The notes under the pieces are model-generated. The model made no database searches, was not told the origin of the DNA, and worked only from the letters and a program-made list of their open reading frames with translations. From assembly GCF_002128425.1 (NCBI RefSeq), contig NZ_NESS01000003.1, forward strand, positions 310,001 to 374,000: 64,000 nucleotides of DNA, read 5' to 3'. Position numbers and translations under genes: made by a program. This DNA is from Gottfriedia acidiceleris. GTDB lineage: Bacteria > Bacillota > Bacilli > Bacillales > Bacillaceae_G. Positions 10,692 to 24,106 of the stretch are shown piece by piece (the first letter of the stretch is position 1; the number at the start of each line of letters is the position of its first letter).

Positions 10692-11216
10692 TTATAAATT
10701 TAATCCACCGTACAATAAAGCTCCCATTACAATAAAAGCTGGGTGTAGCTTTACTTTCTCCATTAATATGTAACTAATTAATCCTAAAAATAAAAATTGT
10801 CCAATACCAATTTGAAAATATGAATCATGAAATGAATTATAAGCCATCACGCCAAGTAAAACTGCGATTGTTGGCTTGACATAAAGAGTCATTCGCTTAA
10901 CTTGGATCGAATGACGATATTTATACAAAATTCCCATTAAAGTCAGCATGAGGATTAATGACGGTGCAACTGTAGCGAATACAGCCAAAACTGAACCTAG
11001 TATACCACCTTCATGAAATCCGATATACCCTGCCATTTTCGTAGCAATCGGTCCTGGCAGTGAGTTCCCCATAGCAAGAGTCTCATTAAATTCTTGATGC
11101 GTAAGCCATCCTCTGCTGACGACTTCTTTTTGAATAAGAGGAATAGTTGCAGGGCCTCCTCCATACCCTAAAATATTAGCAACAAAAAACGCCCAGAAAA
11201 TGTTCCAATATACCAT
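10692..11216 (-). CDS. chromate transporter family protein, short subunit 2
   Basis: A 174-residue half-size CHR-family protein. The N-terminal GYGGGPATIPLIQKEVV and GNSLPGPIATKMAGYIG blocks are the family signature, followed by five or six hydrophobic segments. Half-size CHR proteins work as pairs in which two genes replace one fused ChrA. This is the distal partner: its ATG overlaps the stop of the upstream CHR gene by 1 nt (TAATG). The substrate could be chromate/sulfate or another anion. Its place in a GntR-controlled catabolic region makes export of an organic or inorganic anion product possible, which is inference. Confidence 0.87.
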   Translation of the reverse strand: MVYWNIFWAFFVANILGYGGGPATIPLIQKEVVSRGWLTHQEFNETLAMGNSLPGPIATKMAGYIGFHEGGILGSVLAVFATVAPSLILMLTLMGILYKYRHSIQVKRMTLYVKPTIAVLLGVMAYNSFHDSYFQIGIGQFLFLGLISYILMEKVKLHPAFIVMGALLYGGLNL

Positions 11217-11785
11217 TATGCAGACAGTCCTTTTGATTTTTTACCTTCAATTGATTTGGTTGGCTTAACTACCGCAAATAACAGAAGCCCACCAATAATA
11301 AATCCAGGATGTATATGAAAATATTGCATTAAAACAATTCCTACCAAAATATGTCCGATTGTAAAGGGCCATTTTAGCCCCTTGACGGAAGCTTCTACAA
11401 ATTGCCAAGTTAACACAGCAAGCATGACTCCAACTACCGGAACGATCGCTTTAGTCATCCCTTGTACCCATTTTAGATCTTTAAATGTCACTAGAGTTGT
11501 CAATAAGATGACCATTAAAATAATCGTCGGTAGAATCGTTGCAACAATTGCATTAATCATTCCAATTTTACCGCCAACTTTGAACCCAATATATCCTGCC
11601 ATTTTTGTATTAATCGGTCCTGGCAGTGTGTTTCCAATAGCGAGCACATCTCCGAATTCTTCGTCATTCATCCATTTAAAACGTTCAACCACTTCTTTAT
11701 GTACTAAAGGAATGGTCGATGGTCCACCTCCGTATCCAAGCATACTGCTTCTGAAAAAGGCGATAAAGATGTTTAACTGTTTCAT
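11216..11785 (-). CDS. chromate transporter family protein, short subunit 1
   Basis: A 189-residue half-size CHR protein with GYGGGPSTIPLVHKEVV and GNTLPGPINTKMAGYIG near the N-terminus, clearly paralogous to the next gene. I place the start at the second ATG (11785), nine bases after AAAGGG; the ATG at 11794 abuts the ribosome site. It has five or six membrane segments and a basic C-terminal tail. The order is ferredoxin, CxxH/CxxC protein, CHR1, CHR2, all closely spaced, so it probably shares the operator-controlled promoter near 12419. Confidence 0.87.
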   Translation of the reverse strand: MKQLNIFIAFFRSSMLGYGGGPSTIPLVHKEVVERFKWMNDEEFGDVLAIGNTLPGPINTKMAGYIGFKVGGKIGMINAIVATILPTIILMVILLTTLVTFKDLKWVQGMTKAIVPVVGVMLAVLTWQFVEASVKGLKWPFTIGHILVGIVLMQYFHIHPGFIIGGLLLFAVVKPTKSIEGKKSKGLSA

Positions 11786-11814
11786 AAAATCCATCCCTTT
11801 AGTTTATCTTTCTT

Positions 11815-12018
11815 TTAGTTTGCAATAAGGCAAGAGCATTTCACACATTTGCCACATGGTTTTTTCTTAACTCGATTAGGTTGATTGACCATATTCATTA
11901 AAAGCGATGTCTCCTCATTACAAAAAGAGCATGTCTCATTAGTTTGAGCTATTTGAATTTGAGGCATTTCTACTAACTTTAAGGCTTCTTTCATATGTTT
12001 GTCGCATACTAACAACAT
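11815..12018 (-). CDS. small CxxH/CxxC-type putative zinc protein
   Basis: A 67-residue protein (start at the second ATG, spaced nine bases from GGGAG). It has CDKH near the N-terminus, CSFC in the middle and a cysteine-rich end CGKCVKCSC. The CxxH...CxxC layout suggests one zinc site, with the extra C-terminal cysteines possibly holding another metal. It resembles in outline the small CxxH/CxxC proteins of Bacillus, but I do not recognise it as a named family. It lies between a 2Fe-2S ferredoxin and the CHR transporters, in one operon. Confidence 0.65.
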   Translation of the reverse strand: MLLVCDKHMKEALKLVEMPQIQIAQTNETCSFCNEETSLLMNMVNQPNRVKKKPCGKCVKCSCLIAN

Positions 12019-12048
12019 ATCATTCACTCCCGCTCTTAAAATTGGATT

Positions 12049-12393
12049 TTATGGTGTTGATGTCACTTTCTTTTTCGGATGATCTAATTTTCGTTTTTTC
12101 ACTTGATCTGTTACATCTTCATTCCATGAAATCGTTACATCTTCGTCGGTAATGAAAGCTTGGCATCCTAAACGAAATCCTTTGCTTAACCATTCTTCAC
12201 CAAGTTTTCGACGCTCCTGCACTTTTATATGATCAACAGTACCCTCTTCAATTTTACAAACGCAGGATCCACAAACGCCTCCACCACATCGATTTGGTAG
12301 TTCTCCATCAAATCGAAGAGACATTCGTAAAATATTGGAGTTTTCCGGTACTTCTAATACTTTTCCACTAGTAGCAAAATTTAGTTTCGGCAT
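12049..12393 (-). CDS. 2Fe-2S ferredoxin (plant/adrenodoxin-fold), first copy
   Basis: A 114-residue electron carrier. Cluster ligands are visible as NRCGGGVCGSCVCKIEEG (C-x4-C-x2-C) plus the distant Cys in FRLGCQAFI; the spacing is that of plant-type ferredoxins. A lysine-rich tail follows the domain. The ATG has AGGAGG upstream. It is first in the operon with the CxxH/CxxC protein and CHR transporters, divergent from the aspartate-dehydrogenase-like gene, with a GntR-type operator in the shared region. A plausible role is electron delivery to the diiron enzyme at 17994-18722; that is inference. Confidence 0.88.
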   Translation of the reverse strand: MPKLNFATSGKVLEVPENSNILRMSLRFDGELPNRCGGGVCGSCVCKIEEGTVDHIKVQERRKLGEEWLSKGFRLGCQAFITDEDVTISWNEDVTDQVKKRKLDHPKKKVTSTP

Positions 12394-12418
12394 AATTTAA
12401 ATCCTCCTCTTTATCTCT

Positions 12419-12435
12419 TTGGTATACAATATACC
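12419..12435. promoter_or_regulatory. GntR/FCD operator candidate 1
   Basis: TTGGTATACAATATACC contains one full TTGGTATAC arm plus an overlapping TATACC arm, 26-42 nt upstream of the first ferredoxin start. It belongs to the recurrent TTGGTATACCAA set of this region. Confidence 0.7.
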
Positions 12436-12506
12436 ATATTTACAATTTTCTGACAATATAATAATTACATATATAAAGCTATTTTTCTAAATTTATATTA
12501 CTCTAT

Positions 12507-12534
12507 TTGTTTTTATATACCGGTCTGATATAAT
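12507..12534 (+). promoter_or_regulatory. sigma-A promoter of the aspartate-dehydrogenase-like gene
   Basis: TTGTTT (12507-12512) and TATAAT (12529-12534) with 16-bp spacing. The operator at 12538 directly follows the -10, a position that would block initiation. Confidence 0.65.
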
Positions 12535-12537
12535 ATT

Positions 12538-12549
12538 TTGTATACCAAA
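12538..12549. promoter_or_regulatory. GntR/FCD operator candidate 2
   Basis: TTGTATACCAAA, a one-arm-degenerate copy of the TTGGTATACCAA palindrome, just after the -10 box and about 35 nt before the coding start. Confidence 0.7.
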
Positions 12550-12583
12550 TACGTCTTAATTTTCAAAATATGGGGTGATGAAT

Positions 12584-13384
12584 GTGCTTACTATCGGATT
12601 AATCGGATATGGAGCGATTGGACAGGATATTGTCAAATATATAAACGAAGGCAAGGCCGGGGATGTATTATTAAAGGCGATTCTAGTACGAAGAAAAGAT
12701 CAATACGAATCGCATATAAGCGATTTATTTTACGAAAATGAAGAGGCTTTTTTCGGATTGGGATTGGATATTATTATCGAAGCTGCAGGTCATGAAGCTG
12801 TCTACAAGTATGGGAAAAAGACACTATCTTCTAATTGTGATTTTGTCATCGCTTCTGTAGGTGCACTTGCAGATGATGCATTATTAGCAGAACTAGAAAC
12901 TGCTGCAAAGCTTACTAACAGCAAGATCATCATTCCTTCTGCAGCAATTGCTGGATTGGATCGTGTTGCTGCTTCAATGTTACAAAGCGTTGATGAAGTG
13001 AAACTTGTAACTAGAAAACCTCCGAGTGCTTGGCGAGGAACAATTGCAGAGGAAAAGGTAGATTTAGACAACGTTAAAGAGCCATTTTGCATTTATAGTG
13101 GTGTTGCTAGAGAATCTTCTAAGCTTTTTCCGGAAAGCACGAATGTTTCAGCAATCTTGAGTCTTGCTGGAATCGGATTTGATAAAACAAAAGTTCAAGT
13201 ATATGTGGATCCAAGCATAACCAGTAATACACACCAAATTTTTGTAAAAGGATTTTTTGGTGAAATGGAAGTAAAGGTGCAAAATATTCCTTCTGCTACT
13301 AATCCAAAGACGGGGTATATTGTAGCAATGAGTATTTGTAATACTTTAAAAAATAGAACGTCCTCTATCGTAATTGGGATCTAG
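12584..13384 (+). CDS. aspartate dehydrogenase-like NAD(P)-dependent oxidoreductase
   Basis: A 266-residue member of the L-aspartate dehydrogenase family. The Rossmann motif GLIGYGAIGQDI is at the very start, IIIEAAGHEAV and IIIPSAAIAGLDR follow, and the C-terminal domain has RKPPSAWRGT and a conserved His in SNTHQIFVKG. Family members deaminate aspartate to oxaloacetate through iminoaspartate. I choose the GTG at 12584 because GGGGTGAT (12572-12579) is the ribosome site and overlaps the earlier ATG. No nadA/nadC genes are nearby and the promoter carries a GntR-type operator, so a catabolic role, perhaps on a related amino acid, is more likely than NAD synthesis. The substrate is not proven. 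Confidence 0.8.
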   Translation: MLTIGLIGYGAIGQDIVKYINEGKAGDVLLKAILVRRKDQYESHISDLFYENEEAFFGLGLDIIIEAAGHEAVYKYGKKTLSSNCDFVIASVGALADDALLAELETAAKLTNSKIIIPSAAIAGLDRVAASMLQSVDEVKLVTRKPPSAWRGTIAEEKVDLDNVKEPFCIYSGVARESSKLFPESTNVSAILSLAGIGFDKTKVQVYVDPSITSNTHQIFVKGFFGEMEVKVQNIPSATNPKTGYIVAMSICNTLKNRTSSIVIGI

Positions 13385-13437
13385 AATTTCCGCTTATACT
13401 ATTTGTGAAATACGAAACTTACTTTCTTCGCTAAAAA

Positions 13438-13492
13438 TAAAAAGCCCCTTTAGTCTAGACAATCTAACAGTCAAACTAAATGAGGCTTTTTA
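13438..13492. terminator. bidirectional terminator between the aspDH-like and gntR genes
   Basis: Stem AAAAAGCCCCTTTAG / CTAAATGAGGCTTTTT with one internal mismatch region, T runs on both strands. Confidence 0.8.
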
Positions 13493-13526
13493 TATTAAAA
13501 GGGATTAAAATATGTCCAGACTATGT

Positions 13527-14195
13527 TTACGTTGTTTTTTCTTTTCTTTTTTCTATGTAGTTCATGTACGCACGTCTAGAATTTTCGATATGAATTTTCG
13601 TTAAATACTCTGACATTTCTATTTCTTTATTTCGTACTGCTTTCATGATCTCAATATGTTCCCTCAAAGATTCCTTACGTCTTCCAGGCGTTTCGTACCC
13701 CATATTAGCAGACATATGGATATAATCTGTTAAGCCAGATAAAATTTCAAATAACTTTGGACTTCTTGCTGCCTTATATAATAGGAGATTCATTTCGATA
13801 TGTTCGTTCTCGAAGGTTTCGTCTGAATGTTCTTCAATATAAAGAAGCTCTTCGATTTTCTGATCAAACTCTTTTTGAATTTCATCCGTCATTTTTTTTG
13901 CAGCTAATTTTGCTGCTAACACTTCTAGTGAAGATAAAATCGTAAACACTTCCATAATGTCTTCATCAGAAATATTCGAAACGATAACACCTTTACGCGG
14001 AACCGTTTTCACAAACCCTTGCGATTCTAAGCGGAATAAAGCTTCTCTAATAGGTGTTCGGCTAATATTTAGCTTTATAGCAAGCTCCCGTTCAATTAAG
14101 CGATCACCTGGCTTATAATGCCCCTCTAAAATCAATTCTTTTAAATATCTATACGCATGTTCGCGGATTGAAAGAAAATTAGTTTCTATATCCAT
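13527..14195 (-). CDS. GntR-family (FadR/FCD) transcriptional regulator
   Basis: A 222-residue regulator. The N-terminal winged helix carries the GntR signature PGDRLIERELAIKLNISRTP and IREALFRLESQGFV; the C-terminal helical FCD ligand domain follows, with Asp, Glu and His positions (EHSDETFENEH, LREHIEI) that could bind a metal and a carboxylate effector. The start at ATG 14195 has AGGTG six bases upstream. It sits in the middle of the set of operons carrying TTGGTATACCAA sites, so it is the natural candidate for their regulator. A degenerate copy of the site at 14312 could give autoregulation. Confidence 0.88.
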   Translation of the reverse strand: MDIETNFLSIREHAYRYLKELILEGHYKPGDRLIERELAIKLNISRTPIREALFRLESQGFVKTVPRKGVIVSNISDEDIMEVFTILSSLEVLAAKLAAKKMTDEIQKEFDQKIEELLYIEEHSDETFENEHIEMNLLLYKAARSPKLFEILSGLTDYIHMSANMGYETPGRRKESLREHIEIMKAVRNKEIEMSEYLTKIHIENSRRAYMNYIEKRKEKTT

Positions 14196-14311
14196 TCCAT
14201 TCACCTGCCGTTGCCAAAAACTTATAAAAATCAATACATAACGTATTTTTATAGATTTCGTTTATTTCCCTTTTCCACGTGTCCGATTTTGCCTAGTTAG
14301 GCTACTTTCGT

Positions 14312-14323
14312 TTGGTATAATAC
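14312..14323. promoter_or_regulatory. degenerate GntR operator candidate upstream of gntR
   Basis: TTGGTATAATAC keeps the left arm of TTGGTATACCAA but not the right. It may mark autoregulation, or just be an AT-rich -10-like sequence. Confidence 0.3.
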
Positions 14324-14382
14324 TCCAAGGGCGTAAATTCGGATACAACAAATCCTACATATCAGTAATAACATTCTAAGTG

Positions 14383-15554
14383 TCAGATTACTAATATATA
14401 TCGTGACAAGTTAATCGCTGCGTTTAAATCTCGAACGATTTCATGACCGCATTCACATCTGAAATATCGGTTTGATAGTCTTAAATCATTTTTTTATTTC
14501 CACAACTATAACACGTTTTAGAAGATGGGTACCATTTATCAGCTTCAACAAATTCAATGCCATATTTTTCACATTTATATTGAATTTGGCGTTTGAATTT
14601 ACATAAACACTGCTTCGCGATCGCTTTTGAAAGGTGCTTATTCTTCATCATTCCCTTGAAATTTATATTTTCCATTACAATGCGATAAGGTTTGGTTTTC
14701 ACGATCTCGCTCGTGGATTGATGAAGATGGTTTAGCCTGATATTTGACAACCTTCTATAGAATTGTTGTATCTTCTTTTCGATTTTTATAATATTGCATG
14801 TTTTGACGAAACGGTGTCCCTCCTTATTCATTTCATATTTACGAGAAACTTGACGATGCAACCTACGTAGGCGTTTCTCTACTCTTCTCACAGTGCTTGT
14901 TTTGTTAATATTTTTCTTCTTGGTTCCATCTGAACATACGGCTAAATCTTTTATCCCCACATCAATACCAAGTGAGACATTTGTCAGTTCCACTATTGGT
15001 TTTGATTTTTCAACCCCAACAGATATATACCAGTATTTCCCATCATAGCTAATTCTGGGATTATAGTATTTTTTATCTTATATACATTCAGAAACTATAA
15101 CCCAACCGACTTTGTCAATCAACACTTTCTTTCCTTTTACTTTCAACTTCACATTATCGTTATAAAAGGATGGTTTTGATTTTCTTTTACTTTTGAACCG
15201 TGGTTTTTCTGCTAACCCTCTAAAAAACTTTTCATACGCATTACAAAGATCTTTTATCGCTTGTTTTGTAATATTATTCGATACTTCATATATCCAAGAG
15301 AATTCATCAATTTGTTTTAAACCAGTCAATTCTTTACTTAACAGGTCATCAGAAATAAACTTCCCACTGTTTTTATAACTTTCTTCTTGCTTAGCCAATG
15401 CCCAGTTATAAGCCCATCTGGCAGTTCCCACTGATTTCCATAATTGTGTTTCTTGTTCTTTAGTTGGTCTTAATCTTACTTTTTTCGCAAGTATCAATGT
15501 TTTATTCACATTATTAAGAGTTTGTTCAGTTCCACTTATCGAATCAGTTTTCAA
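14383..15554 (-). pseudogene. tnpB: IS200/IS605-family tnpB, degraded
   Basis: Two ORF pieces (15078-15554 and 14481-14993) lie in the same frame and are one RNA-guided nuclease gene interrupted by TAA at 15078-15080. Reading through gives DKKYYNPRISYDGKYWYISV, a normal TnpB link. A second lesion is in a seven-A run near 14490: adding one A restores CGNKKNDLRLSNRYF and CGHEIVRDLNAAINL. RuvC residues are in GIDVGIKDLAV and MENINFKGM; the third Asp (RDLNAA) and half of the zinc ribbon lie after the frameshift, so the product is dead. No tnpA is present and the element ends could not be placed. Confidence 0.88.
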
Positions 15555-15969
15555 ATTACTCACCTCATGTATATATATACACAATTAGTAATTTGCATTT
15601 AGAACAAATTGTGAAATTTTTATAAATTTAAATTAACTGTTGTTAACCTCCTAATTCTTGCCTATTTTAAAATAGTGTAACACCATTTTTTCAAAAGTAA
15701 ATTAATATTTCTATTATATTATCTTTTATTAGACTAATCGAGCATAAGTAATGAAATACCTATCTTTCATCCTTACACAAGGAACTTTGCTATGTAAATT
15801 ATTAATAGTCCTTTGATCTCTATTATCTTTCTTTTATAAGTAAATCTTCTTATAGCTAACTACTTTTATTGCCTTTAAATAAAAACTTTAATCCCAGTTA
15901 GTTTACTATTCAAATGTTTGTAAACCAAAAAAGGCGATGTAGGAACAACACCTAACCGCCTCCAAAATA
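15555..15969. other. AT-rich gap upstream of tnpB
   Basis: No gene is seen. It contains the palindrome TGTATATATATACA just before the tnpB start, the inverted repeat GTTTAC...GTAAAC near 15901-15925, and the terminator of the next operon. Part of it may be the left end of the former IS605-type element. Confidence 0.5.
15926..15962 (-). terminator. terminator of the diiron enzyme/ALDH/GlcG-like operon
   Basis: On the minus strand an imperfect GGCGGTTAGG / CCTACATCGCC stem is followed by TTTTTT. Confidence 0.75.
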
Positions 15970-16449
15970 TTATTTTTTAATGTCTGCATCAGTCACAACT
16001 TCATAACCGTCATTTGAAAGGAACTCTTGCAATGCTTGTAAAGCAGCTGTTCCAACCGCTGTATCCTGCTCTCCATTTCCACCGCTGATCCCCACGCCAC
16101 CAATGACTTCCCCATTTACTACAATTGGAAAACCGCCAACAAAAATTGCAAATTTTCCATTTAGCATATGTTGTATTCCAAATGCTTCATTTCCAGGTAG
16201 GGCTGGTCCATTTGGTTCTGTATTAAATAAATGAGTCGAGCGTTTATGCCCAGCTGCCGTATATGCTTTAGCAATTGCAATTTCAGGCCCAGTAATACGA
16301 GCACCATTCATTCGTTCAAGTGCAATGACATATCCTCCGTCATCTACTATTGCAATCGTCTCCGGAACGTTGATATCTTCTGATTTTTTCTTAGCAGCTT
16401 CAATCATTACTTTTGCTTCATCTAGTTCTAATTTTAATATTTTTTTCAT
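15970..16449 (-). CDS. GlcG/HbpS-like (DUF336) heme-degrading-domain protein
   Basis: A 159-residue member of the GlcG/HbpS/PduO-C family. Diagnostic segments are AIVDDGGYVIALERMNGA, the SxxIAxxKAxTA-type helix (EIAIAKAYTAAGHKRST) and the glycine-rich end GEVIGGVGISGGNGEQD. Family members bind heme, cobalamin or small ligands, or act as companions of glycolate and propanediol pathways; the exact role is rarely known. It is third in an operon after the diiron enzyme and the aldehyde dehydrogenase (14 nt after the latter). The ribosome site is AAAGGAGG. Confidence 0.83.
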   Translation of the reverse strand: MKKILKLELDEAKVMIEAAKKKSEDINVPETIAIVDDGGYVIALERMNGARITGPEIAIAKAYTAAGHKRSTHLFNTEPNGPALPGNEAFGIQHMLNGKFAIFVGGFPIVVNGEVIGGVGISGGNGEQDTAVGTAALQALQEFLSNDGYEVVTDADIKK

Positions 16450-16462
16450 TTAAAATCCTCCT

Positions 16463-17926
16463 TTAGTAACCGATATAGACTGTTTTTATTTGTGTAAAGA
16501 ATTCAAGTCCAACTCTGCCTGATTCGCGGAATGTAGATGTACTAGAGCGTTTTACTCCACCAAACGGAGCATTCATCAAATTACCTGTCGTTGTACGATT
16601 TACTTTAACTGTCCCTGCTTGAACATCTTTTGTAAATTGATGAGCGAGTTTCAAATTATTAGTAATAATCGATGCAGATAAACCATATTCAACATCGTTA
16701 GCAATTAAAACGGCTTCTTCATAACTTTCAACTTCAATCACAGCAACTACTGGGCCGAAAATCTCTTCTTTAGCAATGCGCATATCTGACTTTACATTCG
16801 TAAAGATAGCCGGTTCAATATAGTAGCCGTTTTCGTATTTTCCATACGCAAGCTGCCTGCCTCCATATTCAAGAGTAGCCCCTTCTTCTTTACCAATTTC
16901 TATATACTTCAGCACGTTTTTTAACTGCTTTTCGTTTGCTAGAGGTCCAATAATAACACCTTCGTCAAAGCCGTCGCCAATTTTTAAAGCACTTGTTTTT
17001 TCCACTAATTTCTGAACAAATTGTTCCCTTACTTCCTTCATTACAATTACACGACTAGTGCCTGTACATGCTTGACCAGTAAGGTGAAAGCCCCCATTCA
17101 CGGTTAGATTAACTGCCAAATCAACATCTGCGTCATCCATTACAATTAAAGGATTTTTTCCACCAAGCTCCATTTGTGTTCTTGTAGTAAAGGATGTGTT
17201 TTTATGAATATGTTCCCCTGCACTAGTAGATCCAGTAAAAGTAACTCCTCGTATAGCAGGATGTTTAACTAAAATATCCCCGATATCGGACGAACTTCCT
17301 GTTACAAAGTTGATAACTCCTTTTGGTATACCAGCTTCATGAAGCGCCTCAACAAGTCGAAATGCAATTAAAGGTGTATCAGATGAAGGTTTGAAAACAA
17401 CTGTATTTCCAGTAATTAATGCTGGAGCAATCTTTCTTGATGGTATAGATAATGGAAAATTCCATGGTGTAATGACTGAAATAACACCAAGAGGCTCCCT
17501 TTCTGTTGTGACTCTCATATTTGGATCATCGTTCGGGAAAGTTTCCCCCGTAAAGCTTTGTCCCTCTATTGCATAAAAACGAAGCGTTTCCGCTGAGCGA
17601 AGCACTTCCTGTTTGGCCGCGCTTATCACTTTTCCTTCTTCTCGTGTTAATTCTTCAGCTAGTTGTTCCACTCTCTGTTCAAGTATTGCTGCCGCATTAT
17701 TTAAAATAGCTGCACGTTTAGATGGTGGAGTTTGTGCCCAGGCAGGAAAAGCCTCGCTTGCTGCATCAATTGCTTGAATCACGTCTTGTTCTGTAGATGC
17801 CTGAAATGTACCGACAATATCTTCCTTATTAGAAGGGTTTACGCTTTGGAACGTTTTATTATCTACTGACTCGACCCAACTTCCAGATATGTAATTTTTA
17901 TAAGTTTCTAGTTTAGTAGTTAGCAA
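16463..17926 (-). CDS. NAD(P)-dependent aldehyde dehydrogenase
   Basis: An ALDH-superfamily enzyme oxidising an aldehyde to the acid. Counting from the upstream ATG at 17935, the motifs are TPWNFPLSIPSRKIAPAL (Asn159), MELGGKNP (general base Glu256) and GQACTG (nucleophile Cys290). Overall pattern is close to the YcbD/ketoglutarate-semialdehyde or benzaldehyde/vanillin-type branch, but the substrate cannot be fixed. AAAGG directly abuts the ATG at 17935, whereas the TTG at 17926 is nine bases away, so I favour the TTG (487 aa). It lies in one operon with the diiron enzyme upstream, so it may remove an aldehyde that enzyme releases. Confidence 0.9.
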   Translation of the reverse strand: MLTTKLETYKNYISGSWVESVDNKTFQSVNPSNKEDIVGTFQASTEQDVIQAIDAASEAFPAWAQTPPSKRAAILNNAAAILEQRVEQLAEELTREEGKVISAAKQEVLRSAETLRFYAIEGQSFTGETFPNDDPNMRVTTEREPLGVISVITPWNFPLSIPSRKIAPALITGNTVVFKPSSDTPLIAFRLVEALHEAGIPKGVINFVTGSSSDIGDILVKHPAIRGVTFTGSTSAGEHIHKNTSFTTRTQMELGGKNPLIVMDDADVDLAVNLTVNGGFHLTGQACTGTSRVIVMKEVREQFVQKLVEKTSALKIGDGFDEGVIIGPLANEKQLKNVLKYIEIGKEEGATLEYGGRQLAYGKYENGYYIEPAIFTNVKSDMRIAKEEIFGPVVAVIEVESYEEAVLIANDVEYGLSASIITNNLKLAHQFTKDVQAGTVKVNRTTTGNLMNAPFGGVKRSSTSTFRESGRVGLEFFTQIKTVYIGY

Positions 17927-17949
17927 ATTTATCATCCTTTCTGAACAAG

Positions 17950-17978
17950 ATGGCAGTTCCCTAGTCGGAAACTGCCAT
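17950..17978. other. intercistronic hairpin between the diiron enzyme and ALDH genes
   Basis: Stem ATGGCAGTTCC / GGAAACTGCCAT with a six-base loop. The T run is on the plus strand only, so on the minus-strand transcript it is more likely an mRNA-stabilising or processing hairpin than a terminator. Confidence 0.6.
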
Positions 17979-17993
17979 TTTATTTTCTAATTA

Positions 17994-18722
17994 TTATGCT
18001 TGTACTAGAGCACCTAAATCCTTTTCAAGATATTCTCTCCATAAGCCATCCATATACATTCGACGCATTTTTGCACCAGTACGAACTACTTCTAAGCAAC
18101 GTTGTTGTAACTCTGGAGTATCAGCATGATCAAGTACAATTTTGTATCCACGCTCTCCGTGAATTTCATCTGATACGATGTGTAAGTCGAAGAATTCAAT
18201 CTCCTCATCTGTAAAGTTGTACTTCTCACGTAATGCTGGAGTTTGCTTACGATAAATGTCTGGAACTTGAGATTCAAGTCCTACAACTAATGCTGCAGTT
18301 GCCACTACGAAGTTTTCACGTGCTGCTACCGCAAAACACCAGCTTTGTAATCCAAGCGTTGTAGGTGCCATATTGTTAGGATCTAATACACGCTCACGAG
18401 TTGTTCCGCAAGCTTCTGCAAATCGAATTAATAAGTCTGTATGGCGATCTCCAGCGATTTCTTCTTCGTACATATTTTGTAATGTGAAATCTTTTGCATC
18501 TTCATATTTTGGTAAGTTTGGAGTGTTGTGGTAGATATAAGCTAAGTAATCTGCAAAAGGTCCAACATAATGGTAATGATTTTCAGCCCAGCGAGCGAAG
18601 TGACTACGCTCTAATTTTCCTTCAGCCCATGCTACAGTAAAAGGCGCTTTTTGGCTATGGTTCCCTTTAATCGCTTCTTCTAACTCCTTACGAAACTCAT
18701 CTTTAGATAATAATCTAGTCAT
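17994..18722 (-). CDS. heme-oxygenase-like diiron oxidase (TenA/PqqC/CADD-like superfamily)
   Basis: A 242-residue all-helical protein of the TenA/PqqC/CADD fold. The six ligands of the HDO class of non-heme diiron enzymes are all visible: Glu87 and His94 (E-x6-H in EEEIAGDRH), Glu150 (VVGLES), and His181, Asp185, His188 (H-x3-D-x2-H in LHIVSDEIHGERG). The spacing is nearly that of CADD. HDOs such as UndA, BesC, SznF and CADD use O2 and electrons to cleave, desaturate or N-oxygenate amino or fatty acids. It heads an operon with ALDH and a GlcG-like protein, with two TTGGTATACCAA-type sites upstream. Electrons could come from the regulon's ferredoxins. It is not thiaminase: TenA lacks this metal set. 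Confidence 0.85.
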   Translation of the reverse strand: MTRLLSKDEFRKELEEAIKGNHSQKAPFTVAWAEGKLERSHFARWAENHYHYVGPFADYLAYIYHNTPNLPKYEDAKDFTLQNMYEEEIAGDRHTDLLIRFAEACGTTRERVLDPNNMAPTTLGLQSWCFAVAARENFVVATAALVVGLESQVPDIYRKQTPALREKYNFTDEEIEFFDLHIVSDEIHGERGYKIVLDHADTPELQQRCLEVVRTGAKMRRMYMDGLWREYLEKDLGALVQA

Positions 18723-18778
18723 CCTAACTCCTCCTCCAATATGTTTATGTAGTTTAATAGTTTAGTTGAAAAATCGAA

Positions 18779-18788
18779 GTATACCAAA
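18779..18788. promoter_or_regulatory. GntR/FCD operator candidate 3
   Basis: GTATACCAAA, the right arm plus core of the palindrome, 57 nt upstream of the diiron enzyme start. Confidence 0.6.
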
Positions 18789-18844
18789 TCACTTAAAACA
18801 CCTATAAAAACTACTAAATAAGAGTGATTATTTGTATTTTGTAT

Positions 18845-18856
18845 TTGGTATACCAA
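18845..18856. promoter_or_regulatory. GntR/FCD operator 4, perfect palindrome
   Basis: TTGGTATACCAA, a perfect 12-bp palindrome, 66 bp (centre to centre about 6 helical turns) from the degenerate copy at 18779. Confidence 0.78.
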
Positions 18857-18940
18857 CTAACCTTATAGTAACCCATTGATTTTTGTTTGTAAATACTTTT
18901 TATTAAATTTTCTAATTTTTCTAAATTCTAAAAAAGTGCT

Positions 18941-20395
18941 CTACCATATAACGAGAGCGACAATGGTAGAGACTATTAGACCTGTAACAACAGGAAATAA
19001 GTTTTTCCTAGCTAACTCTAAAACATTCACACCACAAAAACTAGCAACCGCTACCAATGACGACCACGCAATTAACGTTCCACCACCTGTCCACACAGAT
19101 CCCATTTGTCCGATTGCTCCTAGCGTTCCAGGTTCCATACCAACTCCAGGTGCCAATGCTCCTGATAAAGCGCCAACTAGCGGTAATCCAGAAAATCCTG
19201 AACCTTCTAACCCAGTAATCGCTCCAGTAATTAATAGACCAAACGCCGTTAAAACCGAATTATGTGGAATGATCGATTGACCAGCCTGAACTAAATCAAC
19301 TAAGAACGCTGGCTTTGCTACATTTTCTCCTAAGGAAAAAATAGTACCGCTAAAGTCCGAGCTGCCTAAGAAGAAGAATGCTGCAATCGGAATAACTGGT
19401 CCCATTGCACGAAATGCAAATACAAATCCTTCTGTAATATGCTCACTAATTTTATCAAGTGCTTGTAAACGACGGAACGCTACACATGTTACGACCAACA
19501 ACATAGTCGCAACACCACCGATAAATGCTGCACCGTCTCCTCCTTCAAAACCACTCATTTTGCCATTACCGATTTTCGTTGAAAACATAAATATGATAAC
19601 TGCTAGTAATGATAGTGGGACTAATACAGCAAATATTTTCCCCCATTTTTCACGCTCTCTATCATCTACTGTAACTTCTGTTGCAGCAGCTATTTCATTT
19701 GCGGAAGCATTTTTGTTTATAAGAGACTGTAAATGTTGCAATGAAGCTTCACTTTCTGATTTACCGATCGATTTTCGTTCAGTAAAGTACGTAATCGCGA
19801 TTGCAACTCCTCCTGTAATTAAAGAAAGAATCAAGACTTTACCTGACACAGCTGACGTTTGAATACCAGCAGCTTTTGCAGTAAGCATTGGGGCAATCTG
19901 CATAATATAGTCTGAAGATAATGCCATACCTTGCCCTGCAATTGAGACAACCATGGCACATGCAATTGGCGACAAACCAGCACGAATAGCCGCAGGTACT
20001 AATAACGTACAAATAAGCGGAACGGCAGGAGTAGGCCAGAAGAATAAAGAAATGACGTATGTGACAACTAATAGAACCGCAAAAGCAATATGCCCGTTTT
20101 TCATCACCTTTTGCATCGGAGCAATCATTCTTTCATCTGCTCCAGTATCTTTTAACGAATGTAATAAAGCTACCATAAAAGTGATGATTAAAAAGATGGT
20201 AAATAGCTCCTTTGCTGCTACAAGGTTTGCGTTGAACAAAGCTTGAAATCCACCAACAACTGAACCTTTATAAGCAACAGAAACAAGAAAGGTTCCAATA
20301 ATAGTAGGCAATACAACCCCTTTTCGAAACAACATAGTCACAATTACAACAAGTGTCATGATACCATAAAGCCAGTGAGCAACAGTTAAATCCAT
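18941..20395 (-). CDS. multi-span permease of the ion-transporter (carboxylate) type
   Basis: A 484-residue membrane protein with about 11-13 hydrophobic segments and a cytoplasmic loop near residues 215-255 (ERKSIGKSESEASLQHLQ). Re-entrant-like segments such as FFWPTPAVPLICTLLVPAA and GAITGLEGSGFSGLPLVGAL recall the IT superfamily, which carries dicarboxylates, citrate or related anions. I do not recognise the exact family. The start is placed at ATG 20395, behind GAGAGGGTGGGG. It follows the creatininase-family gene by 27 nt, so the two are probably one transcript: uptake plus amide hydrolysis. Confidence 0.7.
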   Translation of the reverse strand: MDLTVAHWLYGIMTLVVIVTMLFRKGVVLPTIIGTFLVSVAYKGSVVGGFQALFNANLVAAKELFTIFLIITFMVALLHSLKDTGADERMIAPMQKVMKNGHIAFAVLLVVTYVISLFFWPTPAVPLICTLLVPAAIRAGLSPIACAMVVSIAGQGMALSSDYIMQIAPMLTAKAAGIQTSAVSGKVLILSLITGGVAIAITYFTERKSIGKSESEASLQHLQSLINKNASANEIAAATEVTVDDREREKWGKIFAVLVPLSLLAVIIFMFSTKIGNGKMSGFEGGDGAAFIGGVATMLLVVTCVAFRRLQALDKISEHITEGFVFAFRAMGPVIPIAAFFFLGSSDFSGTIFSLGENVAKPAFLVDLVQAGQSIIPHNSVLTAFGLLITGAITGLEGSGFSGLPLVGALSGALAPGVGMEPGTLGAIGQMGSVWTGGGTLIAWSSLVAVASFCGVNVLELARKNLFPVVTGLIVSTIVALVIW

Positions 20396-20422
20396 AAACC
20401 CCACCCTCTCATTTATAGGTAC

Positions 20423-21193
20423 TTACAACTTACATTCTTCTTCTAGATGTAATAGCATTTGGAGTTCGTTTGAAAGGTTTTCGAGTGCTTCACCTACAAT
20501 CTTTTCCCCTATTTCGAAACTTGCTTTCGTTGCATCTCCAATGCAACCATTAGTCGTCATTTCTTCGTATCGATAAAACCCTTGAATAGCTTTACCAGGT
20601 CGTAGCTGCTTCCATCTACCTTCGTTTTGGATGCTTCCTTTAGTAATTTTATTTTGTCTAATTAAGTGAGGAGCCAAGTAAAGTGCTTCTGACACTTCTC
20701 GTTCACAGCTGTGACCGAACAATGGCGAGTGAATAGATTCTGAGATTGATAGTTTAGCAGAAGCTGTCGTTTTGGCATAATAAATCTCTGCATCTAGCTC
20801 TTCTGACAACATAGTACTGGCAACATTTAAAGTTGACTGATTACCACCGTGAGAGTTTAAAAATAAAAATTTTTGAATACCATGATGTTTAAGAGATACG
20901 ATCATATCTTTTAAAATTGCTATAAGCGTAGTCGGTTGCAATGAAATGGTTCCTGGAAAGTTCAAATGATGCTGCGAGACTCCCATATTGACAGTAGGCG
21001 TTACGATTACATGAGGATACATTTTTTCAGCTAATTTCTCAGCCATTTTCTCAGCTAGTACAGCATCACAGCTTTCAACCATGTGAGGGCCATGCTGTTC
21101 ATGTGCACCGATTGGAATTATTGCTAGTTTTACAGTATGTAATGCATCCTTTACTTCTTCCCAAGTCATCTCAGTTAACAAATATGATTTCAT
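20423..21193 (-). CDS. creatininase-family amidohydrolase
   Basis: A 256-residue metal-dependent amidohydrolase. The family residues are PIGAHEQHGPHM (Glu and His ligands), an Asp in ESCDAVLAEK, the MGVSQHHLNFPGTISL block, NSHGGN and the late Glu in GHSCEREVSEALYLAP. Relatives hydrolyse creatinine, formamidopyrimidines or small peptides (MftE). Here it may open a ring or cut an amide in the unknown substrate. The start is the ATG at 21193 behind AAAGGGGG; the upstream ATG at 21211 precedes that ribosome site. A TATACC-type operator at 21277 lies upstream. Confidence 0.88.
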   Translation of the reverse strand: MKSYLLTEMTWEEVKDALHTVKLAIIPIGAHEQHGPHMVESCDAVLAEKMAEKLAEKMYPHVIVTPTVNMGVSQHHLNFPGTISLQPTTLIAILKDMIVSLKHHGIQKFLFLNSHGGNQSTLNVASTMLSEELDAEIYYAKTTASAKLSISESIHSPLFGHSCEREVSEALYLAPHLIRQNKITKGSIQNEGRWKQLRPGKAIQGFYRYEEMTTNGCIGDATKASFEIGEKIVGEALENLSNELQMLLHLEEECKL

Positions 21194-21276
21194 ATTTTCA
21201 CCCCCTTTCATAGTTGTATCCGCTTACAAAAGATTCTGATTTTGATATGAATTCAACGATTAAATTAGAGAGGTAT

Positions 21277-21288
21277 TTTGTATACCTA
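21277..21288. promoter_or_regulatory. GntR/FCD operator candidate 5
   Basis: TTTGTATACCTA has the GTATACC core, 84 nt upstream of the creatininase-family start and just after the second ferredoxin stop. Confidence 0.5.
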
Positions 21289-21303
21289 GATGTTACAAAA
21301 AAA

Positions 21304-21636
21304 TTACTGTGCATTTACTGGCTTTGCAACTTTAGTTATTGGAACGTTTATATTTTCTTGTGATATGACAATATCTTCTTTGATCGTTAACTGACAGCAT
21401 AATCGAATGCCTTCTTCAACCTTTTCACCTAGCATTTTCTGCTCTTTCCAGTTTGGCGGATCAAGCTTTTCTGCCCCTTCTAGCACTCTACATGCACATT
21501 TTGTACATTTTCCCATCCCGCACCCATATTTCAGTTTTGGGAATTGACGGATGCCTGCCAACACTACTAAATTTGCGTTATCACGGACTTCCTGCTCAAT
21601 AATTTCTCCTTCTACATGCAAGCGTACTTTTGGCAT
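21304..21636 (-). CDS. 2Fe-2S ferredoxin, second copy
   Basis: A 110-residue plant-type ferredoxin. Ligands are in KYGCGMGKCTKCACRVLEG (C-x4-C-x2-C) and the distant Cys pair IRLCCQLTI. It is paralogous to the ferredoxin at 12049-12393 but has a different cysteine neighbourhood. The start is set by GGAGG just upstream; that ribosome site overlaps GGTATAC, a partial operator sequence. It precedes the creatininase-family gene on the same strand. Confidence 0.87.
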   Translation of the reverse strand: MPKVRLHVEGEIIEQEVRDNANLVVLAGIRQFPKLKYGCGMGKCTKCACRVLEGAEKLDPPNWKEQKMLGEKVEEGIRLCCQLTIKEDIVISQENINVPITKVAKPVNAQ

Positions 21637-21859
21637 ATGTATACCTCCAATGTAATTTTCTTAAAATTAAAAAAATTTACTCTGATTATAATTCGAATTT
21701 TTTAGAAAGTAAACACTATTATTCATTTGGAAATCTTTAACATAAAATACTTTGTCTATTCATACAAACTTTTTCTTACAAACGTTCATTGTTTTTATTA
21801 AAAATTCAGAAAATTATATTGATTAATATTTTTTTCTGTATTACACTATGAATAGAAAT

Positions 21860-21871
21860 TTGGTATACAAA
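21860..21871. promoter_or_regulatory. GntR/FCD operator candidate 6
   Basis: TTGGTATACAAA, one perfect arm and core, 47-58 nt upstream of the 111-residue gene; it lies between that gene and the divergent ferredoxin. Confidence 0.7.
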
Positions 21872-21917
21872 ATACCTTATGCTCAAAACTACATATTTAG
21901 ATGAGGAGTGTGCAAAG

Positions 21918-22253
21918 ATGGGTAAGTATATTGTATTGACGAATAAAGACACGTTTCAAACTATTGTAGATAACGAGGGATTAAAGGCAATCGAAACATA
22001 CCACTTTTATTTTTTTAACGAACTGAAAGCTAAATACACAATTGCCGAAGTGTTAGATGACAATATTAAAATTAAACTTTACGAAAAGTATGAAGGAAAA
22101 GAATATGTGAATGATATTCGCGTAAAGTTCTTTGAGACATTTGAAACGATTGAAGCAGCACAAGAAGAATTATATGAAATAGTAAAAGCTCAAGGAAACA
22201 GCGAAGACTCCCAGCATTCAAAATTAGTAAAGTCGGACGTACTAACTGTATAG
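21918..22253 (+). CDS. unrecognised 111-aa protein of the GntR regulon
   Basis: I do not recognise this family. GAGGAG at 21903-21908 places the start at ATG 21918 (MGKYIVLTNKDTFQTIVDN), not the earlier ATG at 21879. The first 85 residues look like a small alpha/beta domain with a Tyr/Phe-rich helix (YHFYFFNELKAKY) and an acidic strand region; the last 25 are a Ser/Gln/Lys-rich tail. There are no cysteines, no signal and no membrane span. It carries its own operator and convergent terminator. It may be an accessory subunit or effector-binding protein for the neighbouring enzymes. Confidence 0.6.
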   Translation: MGKYIVLTNKDTFQTIVDNEGLKAIETYHFYFFNELKAKYTIAEVLDDNIKIKLYEKYEGKEYVNDIRVKFFETFETIEAAQEELYEIVKAQGNSEDSQHSKLVKSDVLTV

Positions 22254-22260
22254 ATTACAT

Positions 22261-22290
22261 AGAAATAGCACTGATCCAGTGCTATTTCTT
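22261..22290. terminator. bidirectional terminator
   Basis: Stem AGAAATAGCACTG / CAGTGCTATTTCT with a three-base loop between convergent genes. Confidence 0.88.
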
Positions 22291-22294
22291 AATT

Positions 22295-23677
22295 TTATAA
22301 ATAAAAAAGCCACTCTAAACCAAACAAATAAAGCATAACAATGAGTAAATAACTAATTGTATATGGAATATTCCAATTCGATACTTTAAAGGAGTTCTCT
22401 TTAACGATACTCGACATTAATCCGATTGTCGCATTGTATGGCCCTACTAGAAATGCAGAAATGGCTCCGGCAAGTAATGACACGGTTAAAATATACGGTG
22501 AAATACCTAAGCTTTGAGGATCAAGCGCTTCTGCCATTAACGTCAAAGTTACTGCGGGATGAAGTCCTGTAAACGCAAATATTAATGGAATTAATGGTAA
22601 TAAAATTAAAAATATCTCTGGTCCTACAATATCTTTAAAATGAGTGACTGCTATATTTACAGTTTCGTTTATATTCGTACCTTTTACTACGGAAATAAAA
22701 AAGCCAGCTGACAAAAAGATAAAAAATTGGTCTTTCATTTTAAAGGAATAGGAATGAAAATATTCTTTTAAATTATGTAAAAATGCTTTTTGTTGTTTAA
22801 TGAGTATAGACCAACAAAGTGCAAATGGGATCACTAAAATTGATACAATAATAACAAAAGAATACGAAAAAAGATGTTCTGCAAATGAAATGATGAGATT
22901 GAATAGAAGTATAGCTATGAAAATATGAAAAACTCTCCCTTGTGTACCCACTTCTTCTAGTGAAGCAGCAGTTTCATCTTCTACTAAATCATTTCTATGT
23001 CCTTTCGTAACATTTTTACGTGAATTCCTTGACGCCAATGCCCAGTCTAATACAATCCCTAATATACTCAACGGTAATACATAGGGCAAAATAGATACCC
23101 ATCTTACCCCAGTTACGCCAATTACAATACCTACGATTGGTGTAATAGGAGCCCATAGAAGTGGCATCGCAAATCCATGGGTAATGGCTCGACTCATAAA
23201 TCGATCTTCTTTTTTTATAGAAAAAAGACTTAAGGATGGTTGAATAGAATAGTATGTCATCGGTAAGGTTGCCAAATTCATAAACATACTTAAAAAGTAA
23301 GATATTCCCGATGTCATTATGTACAACTGACCGGATGTTTTTACTTTCTTCTGTATAATCTTTTGAATGCCTTTTGCATAGCCACCTAGTTTAACCGGAA
23401 AACCTAATATTGGTATTAAAGCAAACAAAGTAAGCAAATCCAGCATTGGACCGAATGAAAGGATATACTCTTTTATACTGGCATTGCTTCTCCAAAGAAG
23501 AATGAATCCTATTAGTAAAAAAATACTTCCTATTGTTCGAACGAGCGATTTAACAGTAAACATCGTATAAAGAACAATAAAGACACATAAAGAAGAAATA
23601 AAAAATTGTAAATCCCAATGAAACAAAGAGGATAATAAATATAAAAAGATTACTAATCCAAACACATACTTCAACAT
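22295..23677 (-). CDS. second multi-span permease of the regulon
   Basis: A 460-residue membrane protein with about 11-12 hydrophobic segments, a charged loop near residues 215-245 (NVTKGHRNDLVEDETAASLE) and a glycine/proline-rich segment GAISAFLVGPYNATIGLMSS near the C-terminus. The layout fits IT-superfamily or gluconate/citrate-type carriers, but I cannot name the family. AGAGGAGG precedes the ATG. Two TTGGTATACCAA-type boxes lie immediately upstream, so it is the most clearly operator-controlled gene here. It probably imports the inducer or substrate. Confidence 0.7.
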   Translation of the reverse strand: MLKYVFGLVIFLYLLSSLFHWDLQFFISSLCVFIVLYTMFTVKSLVRTIGSIFLLIGFILLWRSNASIKEYILSFGPMLDLLTLFALIPILGFPVKLGGYAKGIQKIIQKKVKTSGQLYIMTSGISYFLSMFMNLATLPMTYYSIQPSLSLFSIKKEDRFMSRAITHGFAMPLLWAPITPIVGIVIGVTGVRWVSILPYVLPLSILGIVLDWALASRNSRKNVTKGHRNDLVEDETAASLEEVGTQGRVFHIFIAILLFNLIISFAEHLFSYSFVIIVSILVIPFALCWSILIKQQKAFLHNLKEYFHSYSFKMKDQFFIFLSAGFFISVVKGTNINETVNIAVTHFKDIVGPEIFLILLPLIPLIFAFTGLHPAVTLTLMAEALDPQSLGISPYILTVSLLAGAISAFLVGPYNATIGLMSSIVKENSFKVSNWNIPYTISYLLIVMLYLFGLEWLFYL

Positions 23678-23701
23678 CGTATCACCATCCTCCTCTTAAC
23701 T

Positions 23702-23713
23702 TTGGTATACCAA
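23702..23713. promoter_or_regulatory. GntR/FCD operator 7, perfect palindrome
   Basis: TTGGTATACCAA, perfect, followed at once by a further GTATAC core (AGTATACTAA). It is 25 nt before the permease start. Confidence 0.78.
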
Positions 23714-23764
23714 AGTATACTAATTAGTATGATTTACAAGAAATTATACCATAAATACTTAGTT

Positions 23765-23776
23765 TTGGTATACAAT
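23765..23776. promoter_or_regulatory. GntR/FCD operator candidate 8
   Basis: TTGGTATACAAT, exactly 63 bp (six helical turns) from the perfect site at 23702. Confidence 0.72.
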
Positions 23777-24106
23777 TTTACCTTTTTCCATTTTCCACTT
23801 GGAAAGTTAGGCATAAATTATAGGTGAAAACATGTTGAGCTTTTCTTTTAATTTATTTTAAACTTTATGAAATTAAATTTGTTTAAAAGGATGAGCACCA
23901 ATCTAAATACGGTTTTAAAAGTTATTATATTCAAATTCCAATGTGTTTAACCAATTTTGGAGTGCACAATTCTAAAAAACCTTACCAGATTTCGATAAGG
24001 TTTTTAACAGTTTCTCTCTTGAATTAATTAACATTTAAAAAAGAGATTATGTATGTATCAATCCCTTTATTAATGTTAATGATAAAATTAAGGGAGGTGT
24101 CTTATA
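23777..24106. other. gap with an orphan bidirectional hairpin
   Basis: No gene is seen. At 23974-24006 there is a terminator-like hairpin, AAAAAACCTTACC / GATAAGGTTTTT, with no gene ending next to it on either side. Confidence 0.5.

Follow-up and report, generated by a model that had tools for sequence, protein, structure and literature searches.

A palindromic operator marks a conserved gene cluster around a predicted heme-oxygenase-fold dimetal oxygenase in Gottfriedia acidiceleris

Within a 64,000-nucleotide stretch of the Gottfriedia acidiceleris genome (contig NZ_NESS01000003.1, positions 310,001 to 374,000; hereafter the window), positions 10692 to 23780 carry a gene cluster that encodes an FCD-type GntR regulator and a predicted heme-oxygenase-fold dimetal oxygenase (HDO) and is interspersed with copies of one palindrome, TTGGTATACCAA (Table 1). 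The genes appear to form eight transcription units, namely ferredoxin 2 (Fdx2) with a small Cys-rich protein and two ChrA-type exporters (-), an aspartate-dehydrogenase-family enzyme (AspDH; +), gntR (-), HDO with an aldehyde dehydrogenase (ALDH) and a GlcG-fold protein (-), a creatininase-fold hydrolase with permease 1 (-), ferredoxin 1 (Fdx1; -), a small protein (+) and permease 2 (-). Pfam matches (GntR and FCD, creatininase, Haem_oxygenas_2, Aldedh, HbpS-like for GlcG, Asp_DH_C, Fer2 twice and Chromate_transp twice) bore out the gene families listed in the initial annotation; the two permeases and the two small proteins matched no Pfam family. That annotation had proposed a palindrome-defined, co-conserved regulon comprising these genes, a proposal strongly supported by operator ranking, gene-specific operator placement and co-conservation, as set out below.

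Table 1. Genes and operator sites of the cluster (window coordinates; promoter-like boxes were identified by eye)
Feature	Position	Strand	Basis or remark
ChrA-type anion exporter pair	10692..11794 (10692-11216, 11216-11794)	-	Pfam Chromate_transp
Small Cys-rich protein, 70 aa (CSFC...CGKCVKC)	11815..12027	-	3' of ferredoxin 2; no Pfam family
Ferredoxin 2, [2Fe-2S]	12049..12393	-	Pfam Fer2
Ferredoxin 2 operator	12419..12430		Overlaps -10-like box of TTGTCA-17-TATATT
AspDH operator TTTGTATACCAA	12537..12548		3 bp after TATAAT box
Aspartate-dehydrogenase-family NAD(P) enzyme	12575..13384	+	NCBIfam NF009828
FCD-type GntR regulator	13527..14195	-	222 aa from ATG matching relatives; TTG at 14234 would reach into insertion
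GlcG/DUF336-fold protein	15970..16449	-	Solved relatives 2a2l (OrfY), PduO-C, EfgA, NahX
Aldehyde dehydrogenase	16463..17935	-	Betaine-aldehyde / alpha-ketoglutarate-semialdehyde dehydrogenase clade
HDO, heme-oxygenase-fold dimetal enzyme	17994..18722	-	Pfam Haem_oxygenas_2 and ligand alignment
Second HDO operator, degenerate	18776..18787		3 mismatches
HDO operator, perfect	18845..18856		8 bp after TTTACA-17-TACTAT promoter-like site
Permease 1	18941..20404	-	AlphaFold pLDDT 86, Foldseek E down to 3.2e-6; TRAP-M / INDY / ArsB-like fold
Creatininase-fold amidohydrolase	20423..21211	-	Pfam Creatininase (PF02633) 213.9 bits
Operator of creatininase-permease 1	21277..21288		2 mismatches
Ferredoxin 1, [2Fe-2S]	21304..21636	-	Pfam Fer2
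Small-protein operator TTGGTATACAAA	21860..21871		12 bp after TTGATT-17-TACACT promoter-like site
Small protein, putative HDO partner	21918..22253	+	111 aa from ATG where most homologues start
Permease 2	22295..23677	-	459-460 aa, no Pfam family
Permease 2 operator, perfect TTGGTATACCAA	23702..23713		Centre 31 bp before permease 2
Second permease 2 operator	23765..23776		2 mismatches, 63 bp from first

A motif scan of the window returned perfect copies of TTGGTATACCAA at 18845 and 23702, as first annotated, together with copies carrying one mismatch at 12537 and 21860, two at 12419, 21277 and 23765, and three at 18776 and 14312. Among the variant sites, the earlier positions 12419, 21277, 21860 and 23765 stood, and two were corrected (12538 to 12537 and 18779 to 18776). 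Two copies had been overlooked, one at 17323 inside the ALDH gene (TTGGTATACCAG, one mismatch) and one at 15917 between an insertion sequence (IS) element and glcG (two mismatches). Overall, the window held 69 matches at up to three mismatches against 44.7 expected, a number reached by none of 100 shuffles, and all five sites with at most one mismatch fell within 12537-23702. Eight of the nine sites with at most two mismatches were intergenic within 10692-23780, where the intergenic share is 14.2% (binomial approximately 1e-6). The sites lie on or just after -10-like boxes, which gives them the geometry expected of a repressor. Paired sites are 63 bp apart before permease 2 and 66-69 bp apart before HDO, in keeping with the 63-66 bp previously given; the pair between the divergent Fdx2 and AspDH promoters, at 118 bp, departs from that range.

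The genome-wide scan suggested with the initial annotation had a divided outcome. In the 4.77-Mb genome the perfect palindrome occurs three times, two of them in the window and one, at C41:151049, inside an ORF (pattern read backwards, twice), and at most one mismatch there are 40 sites against 20 for the backwards pattern. Five of the 40 fall at window 12537-23702. The other 35 comprise 29 within open reading frames (ORFs) of at least 90 aa, which are mechanical calls and not genes, and six intergenic sites, the nearest of which lies 181 bp upstream of an ORF, so that no start-proximal copy was found elsewhere. As the count is only modestly above the backwards control, it is the position of the sites that sets the cluster apart.

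Neighbourhoods were compared across the best 80 of 450 confirmed relative loci, made up of 70 Bacilli and 10 Cupriavidus/Paraburkholderia (beta) loci, some of them cut by contig ends (e.g. L027, L052, L053, L080, L085 and L101). The palindrome with half-site TTGGTA ranked first among 60 permutations in the seven Gottfriedia loci, with 12 exact matches and none for the other 59, and again in the 63 other Bacilli loci, where 166 sites matched with one mismatch or none, against 23 for the runner-up and a median of 2.5. In these 63 loci, with Gottfriedia left out, operators (up to two mismatches, -250 to +30) preceded HDO in 59/63, permease 2 in 51/59, Fdx2 in 42/59, the small protein in 40/59, creatininase in 39/62, Fdx1 in 34/58, AspDH in 26/44 and permease 1 in 18/62, the counts for the divergent pairs Fdx1/small protein and Fdx2/AspDH not being independent, as each pair can share a site. 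Genes internal to operons went without one (ALDH 0/63, GlcG 0/60), and the figures for ChrA and control ORFs were 3/114 and 4/308. Within the genus, nine HDO-positive genomes carried one to three perfect copies each, and four HDO-negative genomes carried 1, 0, 0 and 0.

Recurring spacings between paired sites in the Bacilli loci were 62-63 or 72-73 bp for permease 2, 73-75, 84 and 106-109 bp for HDO, and 107 or 118 bp for Fdx2/AspDH. Values near 62-63, 73, 84, 107 and 118 bp resemble whole helical turns; whole-turn phasing gave p = 0.13 over all 15 spacing modes and p = 0.005 for the seven recurring modes, with related species not independent. DNA looping between paired operators is offered as a suggestion only.

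Co-occurrence of the gene set, also anticipated in the initial annotation, was seen in the 70 closest Bacilli loci, and its core was kept in the ten beta loci, which lack the operator. HDO, ALDH and GlcG were present in 80/80 loci, with HDO 72-100% identical. Creatininase was matched in 70/70, permease 2 in 67/70, ChrA in 64/70 and AspDH in 51/70 Bacilli loci, and each of these in 0/10 beta loci; the small Cys-rich protein was matched in 24/70 Bacilli loci. Because the two ferredoxins, and likewise the two ChrA proteins, cross-match, their presence counts are upper bounds, and in the G+C-rich beta loci ORFs were called mechanically, with shadow ORFs (family F15 and some of F17) among them. Distribution of HDO was patchy (15/199 genomes of the order, 9/13 of the genus and 5/398 of the phylum of genome G208), and a plasmid collection contained it in two Caballeronia and four Cupriavidus records, with surroundings read in one (L105). 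The identity of 72-74% between the HDO of the window and those of Cupriavidus/Paraburkholderia suggests that both groups use the same narrowly defined substrate, one widespread in soil.

Around this fixed core the hydrolase changes. Proteobacterial HDO genes lie near an amidase (L100, L154) or an alpha/beta hydrolase whose gene overlaps that of a ferredoxin (L105), and in L153 a gamma-glutamyltranspeptidase-family protein sits beside a reductase, as if different conjugates fed one intermediate. An OCD/mu-crystallin enzyme was found near HDO in L104, L105, L152 and L154, and together with the AspDH of the Bacilli loci it supports a role for nitrogen in the pathway. A Fer2-FAD-NAD reductase adjoins GlcG in at least four proteobacterial loci (L097, L105, L152 and L153), and a pyridine-nucleotide-disulphide reductase was present in 11 Bacilli loci. 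As to the enzymes of the window, AspDH passed the cut-offs of NF009828 (226.3 vs 177 bits) and NF009829 (191.8 vs 184) and did not reach the equivalogs NF009830 and TIGR03855, and ALDH scored below the alpha-ketoglutaric semialdehyde dehydrogenase model NF042993 (602.2 of 770 bits). Creatinine degradation was not accepted as the identity of the pathway, with the creatininase equivalog TIGR04448 missed at 102 of 235 bits; no creatinase occurred among annotated neighbours, although no search was aimed at creatinase itself.

The regulator carries GntR and FCD domains above the Pfam gathering score (67.7 bits against a cut-off of 27, and 58.1 against 24.3), shared with FCD GntR repressors of catabolic operons of the LldR, NanR and PhnR types, which act on short palindromic operators at promoters. 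It reached no curated equivalog (best PhnR_burk, 85.7 of 271.5 bits) and, unlike those repressors, forms with its operator and regulon a pair for which the literature matches listed hold no description. Homologues in 69/70 Bacilli loci, the seventieth (L027) being cut by a contig end, support the earlier designation of GntR as putative regulator, and from this gene adjacency we infer that the FCD-GntR protein probably governs the palindrome regulon. The degenerate copy at 14312, previously placed before gntR as one of its sites, lies inside an IS605-type element (approximately 14210-15646) that separates the start of gntR from its Shine-Dalgarno sequence, and is therefore not a gntR operator; autoregulation through it is ruled out. 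The element, whose tnpB is broken into two ORFs (14481-14993 and 15078-15584), is absent from 6/6 other genus loci compared. The gntR reading frame is uninterrupted, and over its 5' 310 bp it shows 93-96% identity to relatives, yet it is split from its native promoter; expression of the regulator in this strain may differ.

This split, the rarity of operators before gntR copies (14/90 in the 63 Bacilli loci) and the presence of two GntR genes in many Bacilli loci would fit another regulator reading the operator while the neighbouring GntR controls something else. We regard that as very unlikely, given the near-constant gntR homologue, the lack of any other close protein in the genome (the next best is 31% identical over 103 aa) and the beta loci, in which a distant GntR coincides with absence of the operator. 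As a separate observation, GntR-like ORFs numbered 102 in 72 loci, and many Cytobacillus/Neobacillus-type loci (L032-L078; e.g. L046 1681-5192) carry, some 8 kb ahead of HDO, a further GntR gene accompanied by AspDH and permease 1.

The presumed oxygenase scored 120.1 bits against Pfam Haem_oxygenas_2 (cut-off 28.9). Aligned to CADD, the 3-His/3-carboxylate set E86, H93, E149, H180, D184 and H187 was invariant in 81/81 sequences at the positions that we take to be the metal ligands of CADD. Fold family by profile and ligand set are shared with the wider HDO superfamily (UndA, BesC, SznF, HrmI, AetD and CADD/NePabS), in which CADD and other p-aminobenzoate (pABA) synthases were nearest, followed by PqqC and, weakly, UndA; the nearest solved structures were 9pj4 (6.5e-23) and 1rcw (5.8e-14). 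Scores stayed below the cut-offs for CADD-type pABA synthase (TIGR04305, 91.3 of 200 bits) and PqqC (TIGR02111, 48 of 240 bits). The self-sacrificing pABA synthesis described for CADD uses a sacrificial Tyr27 and the amine donor Lys152 (PMC11965152). In the present family the place of Tyr27 is taken by Thr (69) or Ser (12) and that of Lys152 by Gln (81/81), so that metal ligands are shared with CADD/NePabS and these two residues are not, which rules out a CADD-type pABA synthase. Judged by its sequence, the enzyme is an HDO, yet no pABA synthase.

According to the available text of a 2026 review, about a dozen HDOs are functionally validated among more than 10,000 sequences, and among the reactions that they carry out with amino and fatty acids are fragmentation, releasing formaldehyde and ammonia (BesC) or CO2 (UndA), and N-oxygenation (PMC13108848). 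The HDOs covered in that text are biosynthetic (PMC13108848), and the nearest solved relatives are pABA synthases and PqqC, which raises the question of whether HDO and its partners here make a cofactor or natural product instead of degrading a compound. This is improbable in our view, as two permeases, a hydrolase, an ALDH and an FCD-GntR operator look like the equipment of a degradation pathway, the annotated neighbour families included neither ligase nor synthase, carrier protein or peptide precursor, presence is patchy, and the sacrificial Tyr and Lys of CADD are replaced. The setting thus differs from that of the reviewed, effector-free biosynthetic HDOs in appearing catabolic and operator-controlled, and in that HDO is accompanied by two ferredoxins, by a small protein that co-occurs with it and, in part of the proteobacterial loci, by a reductase.

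That small protein, which probably starts at ATG 21918 to judge from its homologues, was the most HDO-specific part of the system among those tested. It was detected (E ≤ 1e-5) in the same 15/199 genomes of the order, spanning 11 genera, as HDO (E ≤ 1e-60), and in 77/80 HDO loci, the others being L093, L094 and L101, of which L101 is cut by a contig end. In beta loci its gene lies between Fdx1 and Fdx2, and in L153 HDO, Fdx1, small protein, Fdx2 and GntR form a single run. It matched nothing in Pfam or PADLOC. Its placement and co-occurrence point to a partner of the HDO/ferredoxin system, and multicomponent ferritin-like diiron monooxygenases (e.g. soluble methane or toluene monooxygenase) would work alike, combining an oxygenase, [2Fe-2S] transfer, a reductase and a small non-redox protein. 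Unlike in those enzymes, the oxygenase candidate here belongs to Haem_oxygenas_2 and has a heme-oxygenase-like fold. We put forward, tentatively and as less probable than not, a new class of multicomponent oxygenase in which a catabolic heme-oxygenase-fold dimetal enzyme, driven by two dedicated [2Fe-2S] ferredoxins and a reductase and normally acting with the 111-aa protein as partner, would have converged with effector-dependent ferritin-like monooxygenases, and would catalyse the key oxidative step of an undescribed Bacilli-to-Burkholderiales pathway for a common soil compound.

The unbroken association of ALDH and GlcG with HDO points to an aldehyde product. GlcG belongs with EfgA, PduO-C and NahX to one fold family (DUF336, PF03928), and EfgA binds formaldehyde with K57, S114 and D121 implicated (available text of PMC8153426). 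At the corresponding places, counted by hand on the alignment, GlcG has K60 in all 81 rows and S121 and D128 in 80 each, the remaining row being a gap in both cases. In contrast to the methylotroph setting described for EfgA in that text (PMC8153426), GlcG here is a fixed partner of HDO and ALDH.

The same regulon could also serve an HDO that acts as a desaturase or converts an amine nitrogen to the N-hydroxy, oxime or nitro form, with ALDH acting on a later product and, in the case of nitrogen oxidation, ChrA exporting an oxidised anion such as nitrite. N-oxygenases such as SznF and HrmI/BelK lie in the HDO superfamily (available text of PMC13108848), and the ChrA pair is frequent in the Bacilli loci, as counted above. 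We consider this option unlikely, though worth keeping in view, because ChrA is unmatched in the ten beta loci, the ALDH and GlcG genes that invariably follow HDO speak for an aldehyde, and no nitro- or nitrite-handling family occurred among the annotated recurrent neighbours, most rarer families being outside the annotation.

Taking these lines together, the proposal that we set at roughly even chances of being correct is a catabolic regulon under repressor control, centred on a multicomponent HDO, which would fragment a small carboxylate to an aldehyde. Chemically, the most economical assumption appears to be that an amino- or hydroxy-carboxylate of small size is fragmented oxidatively, and the outline of import, opening, oxidation and dehydrogenation given in the initial annotation is compatible with the predicted protein families. 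In the absence of substrate, an FCD-GntR dimer would occupy the TTGGTATACCAA sites, several of which are paired, at or shortly downstream of -10 boxes and repress transcription. A small carboxylate would enter through permease 1 or permease 2, and an amide/lactam-type hydrolase, creatininase-fold here and from other families near the proteobacterial clusters, would free the core substrate. With electrons from ferredoxins 1 and 2 and help from the 111-aa protein, HDO would then activate O2 and cleave a C-C or C-N bond of the amino- or hydroxy-carboxylate. ALDH would oxidize the resulting aldehyde while the GlcG/EfgA-fold protein binds or guards a reactive aldehyde (formaldehyde would fit), the AspDH-type enzyme would handle a nitrogen-bearing product and ChrA would export a by-product anion. 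The sequences themselves bear out the operator, its placement at promoter-like boxes, the co-conservation, the intact metal ligands and the co-occurrence of HDO with the small protein, from which the repressor role of this GntR, the service of ferredoxins and small protein to HDO, the fragmentation and the order of the steps are inferred.

Several observations weigh against this proposal, in addition to the scarcity of operators before gntR. At up to one mismatch the operator was absent from the ten beta loci, whose GntR is 29-41% identical; some HDO genomes (G056, G112, G187 and G203) lack a perfect TTGGTATACCAA, and perfect copies occur in 68/199 genomes of the order, most of them HDO-free, so that the 12-mer alone is not diagnostic of the system. 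The small protein was not found in the L093 and L094 loci or in the corresponding whole genomes with the beta sequence as query, in G187 a stop codon lies within the matching stretch, and the AlphaFold model of the protein (pLDDT 80) had no solved-fold match at E ≤ 0.001. Studied HDOs, as presented in the available text of the 2026 review in the context of natural-product, fuel and cofactor biosynthesis, need no protein effector, and the sole redox partner mentioned there is MboB, for one MboA step (PMC13108848). EfgA pocket residues are largely conserved in DUF336 homologues generally (available text of PMC8153426), and being so widespread they do not single out formaldehyde. AspDH was unmatched in 19/70 Bacilli loci, some cut by contig ends, and no OCD was matched in L153. 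Permease 1, whose fold we take to be that of the ion-transporter (IT) superfamily, belongs to a broad family found in 126/199 genomes; ten further relatives, nine from HDO-free genomes plus an additional copy from the HDO genome G021, had no cluster genes within about 8 kb and thus give no hint at the substrate.

Whether the pathway is already known under other gene names was also considered, for example as a proteobacterial aspartate-dehydrogenase/ALDH cluster, since in Pseudomonas aeruginosa an aspDH gene presumably lies beside an ALDH gene. We see a slim chance of this, as the gene set and operator were unmatched among the open-access literature matches listed (subscription literature being outside that scope). 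Those matches likewise contained no description of the regulon or of a ferredoxin-linked catabolic HDO, in agreement with the earlier remark that no described pathway has this set, and those to the operator sequence were, by title, viral, plant and human/mouse studies, none describing this operator. A term search of the available text of the 2026 HDO review returned no occurrence of the word ferredoxin (PMC13108848). Regulator and enzyme families are each of a known type, and what is new, as far as seen, is their combination and the partner protein. If true, nutrient degradation would be added to the range of the HDO family by a conserved member that has ferredoxins beside it, a co-occurring small protein and a clear-cut operator, and a compound that releases the repressor from TTGGTATACCAA would provide a direct route to the substrate.

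Some further observations concern the borders of the system. In many Cytobacillus-type loci the cluster is bordered by RidA-like (YjgF) proteins and by P5CR-like NAD-binding proteins, each seen in 32 loci (e.g. L051:15478-15951 and L047:4928-5623); they are possible imine-handling neighbours. Operators seldom precede these genes (1/32 and 3/32) or the neighbouring Hyi and GarR genes (0/5 and 0/6), which places all four outside the regulon. In L151 (8429-11090) a distant HDO (45% identity) lies beside GlcG (48%), GntR (29%) and a Rieske protein, with ferredoxins, small protein and ALDH unmatched within 19.5 kb, and HDO with GlcG may be the older nucleus of the system. Three loci named Chryseobacterium sp. 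ISL-80 and Paenibacillus spp. (L036, L034 and L064) share gene content and order with Cytobacillus/Neobacillus, and their names may be wrong. Similar to the copy at 17323-17334, CTGGTATACCAA copies occur inside the ALDH gene elsewhere (e.g. L025 11386, L040 11667 and L063 11467), and this internal site is either codon-driven or an intragenic operator.

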